Assembly: GCA_017452265.1 (NCBI GenBank)
Contig: JAFTMS010000022.1
Span: forward strand, 1-64,000
DNA length: 64,000 bases
Source of the DNA: Bacteroidales bacterium
Lineage (GTDB): Bacteria; Bacteroidota; Bacteroidia; Bacteroidales; UBA932
Reading direction: 5' to 3'
Shown: one piece after another, positions 3,368-9,811 of the stretch
Position numbering within the stretch: the first letter of the stretch is position 1
Layout: every line of letters begins with the position of its first letter
Notes under the pieces: model-generated
What the model was told of the DNA's origin: nothing
What the model saw: the letters and a program-made list of their open reading frames with translations, nothing else
Databases searched by the model: none
Translations under genes and position numbers: made by a program

Positions 3368-3934
3368 ATGGAAAATTTGTGTTTAACAATTATCAATAGT
3401 GACATTGTTGCTGTTAAAAATATTTTATTGGAACTTTTTAGTCAAGATGATGTATTGTATTCATATGGCCAGAATAGGATAAATATGTCCGAAATCCAAT
3501 ATAATCCACAAATTAGCAAACTTCAGATATGGAAACCTGTTGGATTTTCTGGAACTGTAATGTGGGGTAATATGGTTGATGGCTTTGATACTATAGCACA
3601 TATTCTAAATAGAAAGTACAAGCTGGAATGGATACGGGTTTCCTTATCAATGCCTTCTTCAGACGGGTATGAAATGCGAGTGTTTCATTACATGCCTTCA
3701 AATGGTAAAGATAGATTTATTCGAGTAATGCAAGATCCTAAGTGGGAGTTTTATGAGCATGGAGAGCCTTTGCCATTTGAATACATGCAAAAATATTCAG
3801 AACGCTTCATAAAGAGGCGTTTAACAAATGAAATGATATTGGATTATGTGCGTATGTTAGGGTGGAATTTGAGGGCTTCCGAGTTTTGGATTTCCGATGG
3901 AGATACTTGCTATCTTGAGTGGAAGAACTATTAG
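3368..3934 (+). CDS. Putative immunity protein for the Rhs toxin
   Basis: A 188-residue protein, rich in aromatic residues, with no signal peptide or membrane segment and no family I recognise. It starts 32 bases after the toxin stop on the same strand and shares its AT-rich composition. The next Rhs fragment resumes 18 bases after its stop. Position directly behind a polymorphic toxin tip is the classic place of the cognate immunity gene, and a cytoplasmic location would suit inhibition of an imported nuclease. This is inference from context. It might instead be an unrelated cargo gene. Confidence 0.5.
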   Translation: MENLCLTIINSDIVAVKNILLELFSQDDVLYSYGQNRINMSEIQYNPQISKLQIWKPVGFSGTVMWGNMVDGFDTIAHILNRKYKLEWIRVSLSMPSSDGYEMRVFHYMPSNGKDRFIRVMQDPKWEFYEHGEPLPFEYMQKYSERFIKRRLTNEMILDYVRMLGWNLRASEFWISDGDTCYLEWKNY

Positions 3935-3951
3935 GTGTTACATCTCATCAG

Positions 3952-4203
3952 GGGACAATCTCAAACTGTTATGATGCGCTTGGAGTCAAGAAGAACCTTA
4001 CATATGTCAACGGAGTAGATTCAACTAAGGTAGAATATCTGGATGGCGTTATTTACAAAGACGGAAATCCAAAGTATGTTGTCACAGAAATAGGGTATCT
4101 ATCGTTAGAAGATAATGTGTACAGGTTCTATATAAAGGATTATTTGGGCAGCATTCGTCTTGTGAAGAATAGCATAGGAACTATTGAAGAGATCAATAAT
4201 TAT
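3952..4203 (+). pseudogene. Second, truncated Rhs core fragment
   Basis: The reading frame from about 3919 runs GTISNCYDALGVKKNLTY and on to YRFYIKDYLGSIRLVKNS and EEINNY. It is colinear with 2253-2505 of the first Rhs fragment at both protein and DNA level. Homology ends abruptly at 4203, before the Rhs-associated core and any toxin tip, and the frame continues into non-Rhs sequence and across the antisense strand of the tRNA genes. It is thus the remnant of another cassette, displaced and cut off at the tRNA flank. No function is expected. Confidence 0.75.
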
Positions 4204-4212
4204 CTTGCTGAA

Positions 4213-4234
4213 AAATTGCAAGTAAATTGCAAGT
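4213..4234. repeat. 11-bp tandem direct repeat at the Rhs/tRNA junction
   Basis: AAATTGCAAGT occurs twice in direct succession (4213-4223 and 4224-4234), ten bases after Rhs homology ends and just before the terminator of the tRNA genes. It may be a scar of the recombination that truncated the Rhs fragment. A chance duplication cannot be excluded. Confidence 0.5.
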
Positions 4235-4273
4235 ACGCCTCGGAGGCCCCAGACCGGAACCAGGTGGAAAAAT

Positions 4274-4310
4274 TAAAAACGCCTCTCTACATCGTAGAAA
4301 GGCGTTTTTT
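4274..4310 (-). terminator. Intrinsic terminator of the tRNA-Asp/tRNA-Val unit
   Basis: On the minus strand an AACGCCT arm, continued by TCTAC, pairs with GTAGA and AGGCGTT around a short loop, flanked by A and T runs (TTTTT on the minus strand). It lies just past the 3' end of tRNA-Val. Confidence 0.75.
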
Positions 4311-4311
4311 C

Positions 4312-4389
4312 TGGTGGGAGCGGAGGGATTCGAACCCCCGACCCTCTGCTTGTAAGGCAGACGCTCTGAACCAACTGAGCTACGCTCCC
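4312..4389 (-). tRNA. tRNA-Val (anticodon UAC), CCA encoded
   Basis: Read on the minus strand, the gene begins GGGAGCGTAGCTC and has the acceptor pair GGGAGCG/CGCTCCC, a D arm, the anticodon loop CTTACAA (UAC, decoding GUA) closed by TCTGC/GCAGA, and the T arm GGGTTCGAATCCC. The discriminator is A at 4315, and CCA is encoded at 4314-4312. It shares a transcript with tRNA-Asp upstream. Confidence 0.95.
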
Positions 4390-4427
4390 GATTCAAAAAC
4401 AGATTCTGTAAGAACTCTATTTTTCTG

Positions 4428-4501
4428 CGGTGCGGACGGGACTCGAACCCGCGACCCCCGGCGTGACAGGCCGGTATTCTAACCAGCTGAACTACCGCAC
4501 C
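4428..4501 (-). tRNA. tRNA-Asp (anticodon GUC)
   Basis: Minus strand: the acceptor pair GGTGCGG/CCGCACC, the anticodon loop CTGTCAC (GUC) closed by CCGGC/GCCGG, the T arm CGGGTTCGAGTCCCG, and discriminator G at 4428. Unlike tRNA-Val it does not encode CCA, so the end must be added enzymatically. It is first in the two-tRNA unit. Confidence 0.95.
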
Positions 4502-5348: not shown

Positions 5349-6806
5349 ATGGAGAAAAAATTATACCCTTTCAGATTCATTCCCGTAGGTTCGAAGAGGC
5401 CATGGGGAGGCAAGGCATTGGTGGAGAATCTCGGCAAGGAGTTCGTGGAATGCGACGAAGACGGCAATGAGGTGAAGATACCTTCGGACGAGCCGGTAGG
5501 TGAAAGCTGGGAGATTGCGGACATGGGCTTCGTGGATTCGGTCGTCAAGGACGGCTGGCTTGCCGGCAATACGCTCAGTGAGCTTATGGAAACGTACCTC
5601 GAGCGCGTTGTGGGCGAGGATGTATATAATTATTACGGCAGGCAGTTCCCTCTGCTTATAAAGTTTCTCGACATTCAGGGACGCCTTTCTGTGCAGGTGC
5701 ATCCTGACGACGAGGCGGCCGCTGAACGGTACGATTCACTTGGCAAGGCCGAGATCTGGTATGTCATGGACGCAAAGCCGGGGGCTAAGGTGTATATGGG
5801 CTTCAACCGCGAGGTGACGGCTCAGGAACTTTACGACAGGTGCAACAACGGTACTGTGGAAGAGATTCTCAATGTCATATACCCTAAGCCAGGAGATGCG
5901 CTCTTCATCGCGCCGGGCACAGTGCATGCTGCCGAGGGCGGCCTTCTGATTGCCGAGGTGCAGGAATCTTCCGACATGACGTTCCGGCTTTACGACTGGG
6001 GGCGTGAATTCGATCCGGCTACTGCCCGTCAGATGCATCTGGAGGAAGCCATAGACCTGATAGATTATGGAAAATACGATGAAAGGTCGTGGCGCAAGGG
6101 GCCGCTCTGGGGCGATGAGGCTTCGCATGAGCCTTGCCATGTTCCTTTGAGCTATTATGCGTTCATGGACGGAGGCTGCGCGGACGGCTGTCACTGCCAT
6201 GATGAAGAGTGCGGCTGCCATGAAGGAGAATGCCATTGCCATGATGACGGTCACGAATGTAATTGCCACGAGGAATGCCACGAATGCCATTGTCATCATT
6301 CGGAGCACCATCATGCCGCCGCCCATATTCACGATGCCGCAGAGGGACGTGTCGTCGATACGCTCGTGGAATGTCCTCAGTTCAATGTGACAAAGCTCAA
6401 CCTCACGGATCCGCTCCATATATATACCGAAAAATTCGGTAGCTTCATCATATATATATGTGTAGACGGAGCGGCTTCTGTCCAGGTTCCTTCCGTAACT
6501 GAAAAGGGAGAGCCTTGCATGGAGGATTACGAACTTTCAAAGGGAGAGGTCATACTCATACCGGCCGATATGTCCGATTTCTACCTTGTTCCCCGTGATC
6601 TTTCCACCGTGCTTCTTGAGGCAGTGACGCGTCCTGTGGACGAGGTCGACGGCTATATAGATCCGGAAACGGAAGCATTCCTTGATGATGAGGATTATGA
6701 GGGACTTGAAGACGGAGCGTATGAAGATGAGGATGAAGAGCCTCAGGGCCCTTCTGGTGCCAGTCCTTTAGGATTTTTCGGTGCAGGACGCACGCCGTTG
6801 TCTTAG
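5349..6806 (+). CDS. manA: Type I mannose-6-phosphate isomerase with Cys/His-rich insert
   Basis: Zinc enzyme interconverting mannose 6-phosphate and fructose 6-phosphate. The N-terminal cupin half has the family motifs and likely zinc ligands Q116 and H118 (QVHPDD), E135 (KAEIWYV) and H193 (GTVHA); R213 lies in TFRLYDWGR. A C-terminal cupin runs about 340-430. Two additions are unusual. Residues 277-328 hold 12 Cys and 16 His in 52 residues, as CHCH, CGCH and HHH clusters, between the two cupin parts. Residues 437-465 form a very acidic tail. The 485 residues are long for the usual bacterial type I enzyme of roughly 320-390. The reading frame is intact through the insert. Metal binding by the insert is inferred from composition. 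Confidence 0.88.
   Translation: MEKKLYPFRFIPVGSKRPWGGKALVENLGKEFVECDEDGNEVKIPSDEPVGESWEIADMGFVDSVVKDGWLAGNTLSELMETYLERVVGEDVYNYYGRQFPLLIKFLDIQGRLSVQVHPDDEAAAERYDSLGKAEIWYVMDAKPGAKVYMGFNREVTAQELYDRCNNGTVEEILNVIYPKPGDALFIAPGTVHAAEGGLLIAEVQESSDMTFRLYDWGREFDPATARQMHLEEAIDLIDYGKYDERSWRKGPLWGDEASHEPCHVPLSYYAFMDGGCADGCHCHDEECGCHEGECHCHDDGHECNCHEECHECHCHHSEHHHAAAHIHDAAEGRVVDTLVECPQFNVTKLNLTDPLHIYTEKFGSFIIYICVDGAASVQVPSVTEKGEPCMEDYELSKGEVILIPADMSDFYLVPRDLSTVLLEAVTRPVDEVDGYIDPETEAFLDDEDYEGLEDGAYEDEDEEPQGPSGASPLGFFGAGRTPLS
6177..6332 (+). repeat. Degenerate short repeats encoding the Cys/His-rich insert
   Basis: TGCCATGATGA, TGCCATGAAGGA, TGCCATTGCCATGATG and similar short units recur, so the insert seems to have grown by slippage of a TGCCAT-based unit coding Cys-His. 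It stays in frame with manA. Confidence 0.6.
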
Positions 6807-6835: not shown

Positions 6836-7282
6836 ATGGAAGAGGTCAGAATTGATAAATATCTCTGGTCTATAAGGGTTTACAAGACCAGGACAGATGC
6901 CACGGATGCCTGCAAGGGCGGAAAGGTGCGTGTGAACGGTGCCGATACGAAGCCATCCAAGCCCGTGAAGGTGGGGGATACCGTAGTTGCACGAAAAGGT
7001 GCGGTTACATATACTTATAAGGTGCTCGAACTGATCGACAAGCGTCAGGGGGCGAAACTGGTTCCGAACTATGCGGAGAATCTGACGCCTCCGGAAGAGC
7101 TTGCAAAGCTTCGTGCTCCTGTGGAGACGTTCTTCCTCAAGCGTGACAGGGGGGCTGGACGTCCGACGAAGAAGGACCGCCGTCAGATGGAGGACCTTTG
7201 GAGCAGCCTGAGTTTCGATGTCCCGGACGATATTGCGGAAAGGTTCGTTTCCGATTTCGGAATGGACGATTCTGACGAATAA
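6836..7282 (+). CDS. S4-domain RNA-binding protein, Hsp15 (HslR) family
   Basis: The N-terminal S4 domain (about 4-65; VRIDKYLWSIRVYKTRTDATDACKGG) carries the conserved R-(I/L)DK-(Y/W)LW start of the Hsp15 family, followed by GKVRVNG. The C-terminal half is basic and then acidic (GRPTKKDRRQ). In Escherichia coli, Hsp15 recycles 50S subunits that still carry nascent peptidyl-tRNA. The length, 148 residues, is close to the family's usual 130-145. It lies 29 bases after manA on the same strand and is followed by a terminator, so the two are probably cotranscribed. Confidence 0.88.
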   Translation: MEEVRIDKYLWSIRVYKTRTDATDACKGGKVRVNGADTKPSKPVKVGDTVVARKGAVTYTYKVLELIDKRQGAKLVPNYAENLTPPEELAKLRAPVETFFLKRDRGAGRPTKKDRRQMEDLWSSLSFDVPDDIAERFVSDFGMDDSDE

Positions 7283-8121: not shown

Positions 8122-9811
8122 GAGGCCGCTGAAAAAGATTCCCATTTTCTACCCCTCTGAGAATCGCATATTTGAATGCCTCTTGACGAATTAGAGATTT
8201 CGCTGAAATACTCGATTCTCAAGAGGCAAATTTAAAAAAAACTTTATACCTTCGACTTCATTTCGCCTTTTCGTCCAATATTCGATTGATTCTCACTAGA
8301 TTGGACGTGAATAGAGCCACTGCTCCCTGCAATGTGTAGGCATCAAGTCCATAACTGATGGCCTTGTCAAGATGATATGAGTGTTTGAGTTCCTAGTTCT
8401 TCGCTTCAATGATGTACCGTATCCCGTATTTCCTTCTGAACTCGTCCGTCTTCTGCTTTTCGAGCATCCTCTCCTGCTGTTCTGTCCTCATTGCCACGGT
8501 GCAGTTCTTTTGATTCTGCCCCTTCTTATATCCGCACAGAGCCGCGTGCCTGCATTTGCGCCATTTGAGAACATCGAAATGATATACGAACTTTTCGTTC
8601 CTGTTCTTTTCCGTGACCTTGCGGTGTACTTTCTTTACAGCCATATGGCCTGCCGGACATACCATCATCTCCGCATCTTTATTATAGGTGAAACGGTCAT
8701 CGTCACGTCTGCCGTCAGCGACTACGGGGTTCAGCTTTGCGACGATCTCCACATTCTCCCTTTCCGCATTCTCCAGATTCTCCTGGCTTGAATATGCTCT
8801 ATCTTCTACGACTTCCTCAAGATCCGGAATGTTGGCCTTGGCCTTTCTGATCAGCTCCGGCAGCTCCTTTCCGTCATTCCTCTCTCCGGAAGTCATTGTC
8901 GCAGCCACCACAACACGTTCCGGAGTCACGGCAAGATGCCCCTTGTAACCGAAGAACTCGGAATCCTTATGGCCGACCCTCGCATCAGGATCGGCAGATA
9001 TGGTATAATGATCGGTTATGTCATCCATCATCTCGGACAGAAGGTTCATCTTCTCTGATATGACCGGGTAGAAGCTTACCTTCTGCTCCTTCAGATAGGA
9101 AAGGAGACCGCACATGTAATCCATCGTCTTTTCCAAATCAGTCCCCTCGTACTTTTCGGGAAGTCTGCCGACCTGGGGGGCGTCAGCTTCATATACGGTC
9201 TTCCGGAGAATGCGGGCCTGCTTCTGAGGCGCCCCAGCAGGAATGACCGGATTGGAACGCGACAGGGTATGGGTGGAGTCAACTATTATCCGGCGGCTTA
9301 TGTCTATCCCTTTTGAACGGGCTATCTCAACGCTCTTGCATATAAGTTTGTCAAGAAGAGAGACCTCCTTCAGACGCTGACGACGGAACTTGGTCAGAGT
9401 GCTGGAATCTATCACATTGTCTTCCGGAACGAGTCCGAGAAAGAACTTCAGGGCCATATCTGTCATACAAAGTTCAACAAGATCTGCATCTGAAACGCCC
9501 AAGACGCTTTTGATCATAAGATACTTGAACATACGCACGGGATCTTCTGCCATACGACCATTGTCAAGACAATATTTGTCCTTGAGCTCATCGTAAACGA
9601 ATGAGTAATCGGTCATGTCGTTAAGACGATGCCATTTGGTGTTCTTCTTAACCACAATATCATAGAGAGCGGAGTACTCTGAAAATCTTATTATACCTTG
9701 TGCCGGCAGCATATCTTATTGTTAATCAACAGAATAAAGATAAAATTCCCGCAACTGTCAAAAATAATTGCAGGACCTATAAGCGGATGAGAGGACTTTT
9801 TCAGCAGCCTC
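8122..9811 (-). mobile_element. IS1182-family-like insertion sequence
   Basis: The ends are marked by GAGGCCGCTGAAAAAG (8122-8137) and its complement CTTTTTCAGCAGCCTC (9796-9811), 15 of 16 positions matching as terminal inverted repeats. Between them lies one transposase gene on the minus strand. The length of about 1690 bp suits the family. A target duplication could not be defined, because a run of nine C follows the right end. A further 10-bp inverted repeat (TGCCTCTTGA at 8178-8187, complement at 8219-8228) lies inside the left end. The element sits between the rubrerythrin promoter and the 51-bp repeat array. Confidence 0.8.
8258..9712 (-). pseudogene. IS1182-like transposase with in-frame amber stop
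   Basis: DDE transposase of the IS1182 group. An N-terminal helical domain (to about 140) includes SSTLTKFRRQRL. The catalytic core has the first Asp in RIIVDSTHT, a second in EEVVEDRAYSS and a later Glu. A Cys-containing segment (CPAGHMAVKK, CRHAALCGYKKG) and YIIEAKN lead to the end. A TAG at 8395-8393 stops the protein at 439 residues. The same frame then continues ELKHSYHLDKAISYGLDAYT...INRILDEKAK to a TGA at 8260-8258, which is the normal C-terminus of the family (484 codons in all). TAG is used as an ordinary stop elsewhere in the window, so this is a nonsense mutation that probably inactivates or weakens the element. Confidence 0.88.

Follow-up and report, generated by a model that had tools for sequence, protein, structure and literature searches.

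Does a stretch crowded with cysteine and histidine inside a type I phosphomannose isomerase (PMI) serve the protein that carries it, and if so, in what way? The gene in question lies in a window of 64,000 nucleotides from a Bacteroidales bacterium (contig JAFTMS010000022.1), and the term window is used below for this whole stretch of DNA. In the initial annotation 12 Cys and 16 His had been counted in 52 residues, and the recount of residues 277-328 gave exactly these numbers.

The isomerase and its insert

The window protein was assigned to type I PMIs by the Pfam profile of the catalytic domain (PF20511, E 4e-12, 46.9 bits versus a cut-off of 22). Two further profiles stayed under their cut-offs, the MPI cupin domain PF21621 at residues 338-413 (23.8 versus 27 bits) and the NCBIfam manA profile TIGR00218 (112.6 versus 116.2, 3.6 bits short). 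The closest solved structure by sequence is that of Bacillus subtilis ManA (1qwr, E 7.5e-33). It shares the enzyme body with the window protein, but it is 319 aa long with a short linker, and the aligned parts leave no space for the insert. The putative zinc ligands, which in PMI structures are Gln, His, Glu and His, are all present (Q116, H118, E135, H193). Since 1qwr has Lys at the place of the Gln ligand in the alignment, this position is not absolute. The features of the locus are listed in Table 1.

Table 1. Coordinates of the isomerase gene, its parts and the downstream gene in the window
Feature	Position	Strand	Basis or remark
Type I PMI with insert, 485 aa	5349..6806	+	ORF list, profile matches
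Putative zinc ligands Gln116 and His118 (QVHPDDE)	5694..5702	+	Alignment to 1qwr
Putative zinc ligand Glu135 (GKAEIWYV)	5751..5753	+	Alignment to 1qwr
Putative zinc ligand His193 (PGTVHAAE)	5925..5927	+	Alignment to 1qwr
Full interdomain linker, about residues 255-335	6111..6353	+	Alignment; short in module-free homologues
Cys/His-rich module, residues 277-328	6177..6332	+	12 C, 16 H; 39 of 103 ORFs have a module in this linker
Acidic tail, residues 437-465	6657..6743	+	Occurs with and without module
C-terminal PLGFF motif (PLxFF class)	6765..6779	+	35 of 39 main-clade proteins
S4-domain RNA-binding protein gene	6836..7282	+	PF01479; 29 bases downstream of PMI

Two tandem repeats are found in the DNA of the insert, one at 6192-6247 (period 21, 2.7 copies, 71% matches) and one at 6228-6296 (period 27, 2.6 copies, 73% matches). 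The slippage repeat noted in the initial annotation is thus acceptable as a mode of growth but not as a fresh expansion, since the copies have diverged. An assembly artefact is ruled out, as other genomes have such modules too. No match to the SmtA-type metallothionein profile PF02069 was obtained in the window PMI, nor one to the cobW GTPase domain PF02492 at E <= 0.01. SmtA-type metallothioneins are likewise rich in Cys and His with CxC spacing, but lacking a PF02069 match the module is not a member of that family. Bacterial metallothioneins are small stand-alone proteins.

That the insert is a mobile Cys/His domain used elsewhere in its own genome was considered and rejected; the second match (L096) had an E value of 0.46 and lay in a frame that runs opposite a longer ORF, and on inspection by eye it was put down to chance. 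The CHCH pattern matched 18 times in this genome, three times inside the insert. Ten of the matching loci were read (those on contigs C19, C21, C30 and C44 and two on C29 were left out), one of them being the PMI locus, and in the nine others no dense ORF was seen, barring a chance-like frame in L129. Among the matches listed from the open-licence PMC literature, there was no published PMI with such a Cys/His module.

Three other features of the window may be mentioned. An antisense ORF of 227 aa (5736-6419, minus strand) spans the insert and is likely a by-product of the Cys/His codons. The ORF at 3919-4482 overlaps genes for tRNA-Val (4312-4389) and tRNA-Asp (4427-4501), both on the other strand, and its C-terminal part is therefore unlikely to be coding. 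A transposase (DUF772, weak DDE match) is encoded near the PMI locus at 8393-9712 on the minus strand.

Modules in related isomerases

Searches with query residues 1-259 detected a close PMI (E <= 1e-90) in 72 of 400 genomes of the genus. The relatives, a group of uncultured gut bacteria, are mostly Bacteroidales metagenome-assembled genomes (MAGs), and many of their record titles name the cecum, colon or rectum of ruminants. For comparison, PMI-type ORFs with a length of 250 aa or more were collected from MAGs through their similarity to the window protein and, in a few cases, through a motif match; 103 distinct ones were read. A module was called, by a threshold of our choice, if at least two Cys and at least seven Cys plus His were present. 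Applying it, modules were found in the linker of 39 ORFs, at the C-terminus of seven and at either site in 43, spanning 11 to 69 residues from the first to the last Cys or His. The search among homologues of related genomes that had been suggested with the initial annotation has thereby been carried out, and relatives with such an insert do exist. Three entries, L217 (the same gene as L097), L218 and L221, had been fetched on a match to a Cys/His pattern and are therefore not an unbiased sample.

Most modules fall into a main clade of 39 ORFs around the window protein, 35 of which have one in the linker; the four without (L060, L064, L067, L076) represent three lineages inside the clade. Beyond the main clade, linker modules occur in L218 and L221 and in L058 and L074, the last two bearing Cys/His modules at both the linker and the C-terminus of one PMI. 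Tail modules were detected in L068, L013, L097 and L205, and the main-clade protein L035 was also counted for the tail. The insert is thus common in one clade, and its length varies by tandem units. Outside the genus, a PMI was present in 38 of 40 genomes of the order, with a best-match frame of 325-377 aa in 37 and of 455 aa in one (G094); the two order-level PMIs that were examined (L025, L028) have no module.

On a tree built by a quick method, with linker and tail columns left out and several long branches, ten changes or more are required to account for a module at either site, eight of them forced by starred branches, while linker and tail modules taken alone require six each. Joining the main clade, module-free members included, with the sequences of genomes G408 and G350 in one clade was not rejected (AU p 0.53). 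A separate origin of G408/G350 is for this reason not claimed, and the two groups may share one origin. The corresponding one-clade test of module rows without the module-free main-clade members gave an AU p of 0.00125, which says nothing on origins.

Other parts of the proteins are distributed differently. The acidic tail of the window protein has 16 Asp or Glu in 29 residues, and a motif of its EDYEG type is present in 66 of the 103 homologues, 28 of which are without a linker module; that insert and tail form a single unit is thereby ruled out. The PLxFF motif at the C-terminal end occurs in none of the 64 PMIs outside the main clade, and could possibly be a docking or degradation signal.

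To judge constraint on the modules, codons were compared between pairs of sequences. With disjoint pairs, pN/pS was 0.162 in module linkers (11 pairs; 131 synonymous and 111 nonsynonymous differences) versus 0.360 in module-free linkers (12 pairs; only 16.5 and 24.5 differences), and 0.119 versus 0.172 in the rest of the respective proteins; the pairs were picked by us, synonymous sites are near saturation, the alignment of repeats favours matches and the module-free control is small. Saturation and repeat alignment give most weight to pairs of equal or near equal length, in which 9 synonymous and 2 nonsynonymous differences (L041/L006) and 13.5 and 2.5 (L063/L065) were counted. Among 24 overlapping close pairs, the values were 0.196 for module linkers and 0.127 for the rest of the protein. 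In overlapping pairs, aligned codons of module linkers were kept in 306 of 351 cases for Cys and His, in 246 of 372 for Asp, Glu and Gly and in 127 of 204 for other residues. The codon patterns indicate that the Cys and His codons of the modules are under purifying selection.

The spacing of these residues was assessed in the 39 modules pooled and 1000 shuffles of them. CxC was found 128 times versus a shuffled mean of 63 and a maximum of 80, CHC 81 times versus 17 and CC 12 times versus 65, the pooled counts being inflated by repeats shared through descent. Both CxC and CHC exceeded every shuffle, so that the pooled modules are, like metallothioneins, rich in Cys with CxC spacing beyond chance.

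Zinc sites and the COG0523 metallochaperone

The PMI genes lie largely at one syntenic locus, since an S4-domain gene follows on the same strand at 89 of 103 loci. In 29 of the 103 proteins the ligands depart from Q-H-E-H. Two of these, L010 and L016, depart from it in the Gln ligand alone and may have retained zinc binding. The other 27 (L009, L013, L015, L017-L024, L026, L027, L029, L030, L086, L087, L090-L092, L097, L204, L209, L210, L214, L218, L221), mostly encoded at the PMI-S4 locus, are apparent pseudo-isomerases. The S4 neighbour is present at 27 of the 29 changed-site loci, and none was found in the available stretch for L019 and L097. Whole-protein pN/pS values of 0.08-0.33 in eight changed-site pairs point to purifying selection.

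A second PMI was detected in all 20 changed-site genomes tested versus four of 14 intact-site genomes. In G041, which is among the 20, and in one more genome, G029, only the Gln place is changed. Of the second copies in changed-site genomes, 17 were read (those of G057, G058 and G428 were left out), and the Q-H and E motifs were recognised in 16 of them, while L243 matched no motif pattern; in intact-site genomes all four second copies have both motifs. The PMI under study was the only one at E <= 1e-20 in ten of the 14 zinc-intact genomes, 12 of which have the module. In eight of 14 genomes, a frame of about 627 aa (range 621-631 aa) includes a segment with weak similarity to PMI (E 1e-8 to 6e-6; e.g. 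G000:C29:53071-53541) and perhaps encodes a fused isomerase-like protein.

All four ligand residues are retained in 39 of the 43 module carriers. The altered ones read MHKH in L013, RHKH in L097/L217 and TCKH in L218 and L221, and the linker of the last two is itself conserved at the codon level (pN/pS 0.14).

The genomes were also scored for COG0523 GTPase metallochaperones, a family linked to zinc homeostasis (PMC2770081). COG0523 (PF02492, E <= 1e-20) is encoded in 295 of the 400 genus genomes; genomes absent from the complete list of positives were scored as negative, and the labels were copied by hand into the contrast table. For 89 genomes, i.e. the 103 rows minus two from other families (L025, L028), 11 lacking a genome assignment and one second copy (L072), both traits could be compared. 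Only two of 42 genomes with a module (G107, G025) have COG0523 versus 36 of 47 module-free ones, leaving 40 with the module alone and 11 with neither. When a close COG0523 homologue served as query, no such protein was found in 41 genomes with a module, namely the 40 and also G007 with its PMI truncated at a contig end, or in five module-free negatives, while ten of ten positive controls were detected; the remaining six negatives were classed by the PF02492 search. Incompleteness is a poor explanation for the 41 negatives, since G350, G013, G274, G432 and G039 are 94-100% complete.

In independent contrasts, module and COG0523 mostly changed in opposite directions three to four times (range two to four), in the same direction zero to one time, and showed no difference three to five times (p 0.125-1). 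The anticorrelation therefore rests on few independent events and is not significant. Part of the pattern reflects common descent, as COG0523 is missing too from the genomes of the four main-clade members without a module.

Similar strings were seen on other proteins of the genus. The COG0523 frames examined (13 frames, 12 proteins) have His-rich arms with 9-32 His after the GTPase core; the string ECHCHEEGHECHCH is common to two of these proteins and to PMI modules, and for one COG0523 protein the best NCBIfam name was zinc metallochaperone ZigA, under the cut-off (343.5 versus 600). A P-type ATPase with N-terminal HECHCHEHGHEHEH passes the heavy-metal ATPase cut-offs of TIGR01525 and TIGR01512 (its frame runs off the end of the locus). 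Metal-handling proteins of the genus thus bear strings of this kind. An FKBP from a related genome has a Cys/His-rich tail as well (L146; PF00254 over, SlyD-type NF008008 under the cut-off). The loci with Cys/His-rich arms, on the ATPase, on COG0523 GTPases and on this SlyD-like FKBP, are L122, L219, L220 and L146. No SmtA-type metallothionein (PF02069, E <= 0.01) was detected in 151 genus genomes, the Synechococcus control being found. Matches to the ECHCH pattern were obtained in 125 of 400 genomes, but many genomes also had matches to a reversed control pattern, and only some places were examined; among four stretches with a single match or a single place (L222-L225), the string lay in a frame of at least 80 aa only in L223, which looks like chance.

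A putative zinc-binding arm

Composition, spacing, selection and company together suggest that the module very probably binds metal. Zinc is the most likely metal, given that PMI, on which the module sits, is a zinc enzyme and that the company is of zinc type. The reading we favour, held with about as much confidence as doubt, is that the insert is a flexible, metallothionein-like arm which would bind zinc in cis and buffer or supply it, mainly where COG0523 is absent. Several zinc ions bound by the arm would form a local buffer; from it the enzyme's own zinc site could be loaded, zinc might be passed to other proteins, and the arm would substitute for the His-rich arm of the missing chaperone. 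G107 and G025, which have both, and the 11 module-free genomes with neither are counter-cases to such a replacement.

Extensions of this sort have precedents. HspA of Helicobacter pylori is a housekeeping protein (GroES) with a lineage-specific His/Cys-rich extension, as is the window PMI, and the C-terminal extension of HspA behaves like a metal sequestration domain (PMC7840056); HspA is a chaperonin with a nickel-binding tail, whereas in the PMI an enzyme linker with a putative metal site is concerned. The tail of Escherichia coli SlyD, with 13 His and 6 Cys, binds up to seven nickel ions (PMC7840056) and resembles the PMI module as a Cys/His/acidic extension of variable length. SlyD is a prolyl isomerase with a terminal tail for nickel, and no sequence homology to the PMI module is claimed. 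Metallochaperones of the UreG/COG0523/CobW type have His-rich arms as well; genomes without UreE encode, with two exceptions, a UreG to which a His-rich motif has been added (PMC2770081), and an arm on UreG without UreE follows the same logic as a PMI module without COG0523. Unlike the PMI, which has no GTPase domain, COG0523/CobW and UreG are GTPases thought to act on clients.

The initial annotation had proposed a metal store or self-metallating module. Its general part gains support from the occurrence in many species, the selection on Cys and His, the metallothionein-like CxC spacing and the mostly COG0523-free genomes; pure self-metallation fits less well. A strict form of it, in which the arm only loads and keeps zinc in its own catalytic site, is unlikely in our estimation. 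It agrees with the intact ligands of most carriers, with the frequent finding of a sole PMI in the genome and with the usual absence of COG0523, but modules are also carried by L013, L097/L217, L218 and L221 with their altered ligands, and the linker of the changed-site pair L218/L221 is conserved. As arms of this kind also occur as C-terminal tails, and some homologues that bear one have altered zinc ligands, the role of the arm is probably general zinc holding more than self-loading alone.

The same two observations, together with the lack of SmtA-type metallothioneins and the similar string in a heavy-metal ATPase, would also suit a general zinc or heavy-metal sink for detoxification, with the PMI merely an abundant carrier. 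This too we regard as doubtful, and it ranks after strict self-metallation, since the arm tracks the absence of COG0523, a zinc homeostasis family (PMC2770081). Improbable is a metal- or redox-responsive switch, in which the arm would fold on metal or form disulfides and so alter activity or oligomer state. The position between two domains would be suitable, and disulfide multimers, likely formed via Cys of the tail, are reported for H. pylori SlyD (PMC7840056), but the range of lengths and the three main-clade lineages in which the module is absent speak against a finely built switch. Least probable is that repeats expanded neutrally in a linker free of constraint. This would explain tandem units and rapid length change, but Cys and His are kept though synonymous sites are near saturation, pN/pS is 0.16 versus 0.36 in module-free linkers (with few control sites and an alignment of repeats that favours matches), and the codon test makes fresh slippage or neutral junk unlikely.

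Returning to the zinc-binding arm, a more far-reaching scenario is conceivable, which we rate no higher than strict self-metallation: one lineage of gut Bacteroidales may have lost COG0523 and the isomerase arm taken over zinc holding and handover, and at the same locus in other lineages an isomerase devoid of its zinc site would have become a dedicated zinc-handling scaffold.

How zinc is allocated to particular enzymes, and which proteins are clients of COG0523 chaperones, are largely open questions. A natural set of species with an arm on a zinc enzyme mainly when the chaperone is absent would make zinc allocation directly testable and would name PMI as a candidate client of COG0523. Nature also supplies here a single enzyme whose putative metal-binding modules differ by degrees. 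Since the arm is kept by selection and occurs mostly where a separate zinc-delivery protein is absent, the zinc supply of this enzyme may be built into the protein itself.
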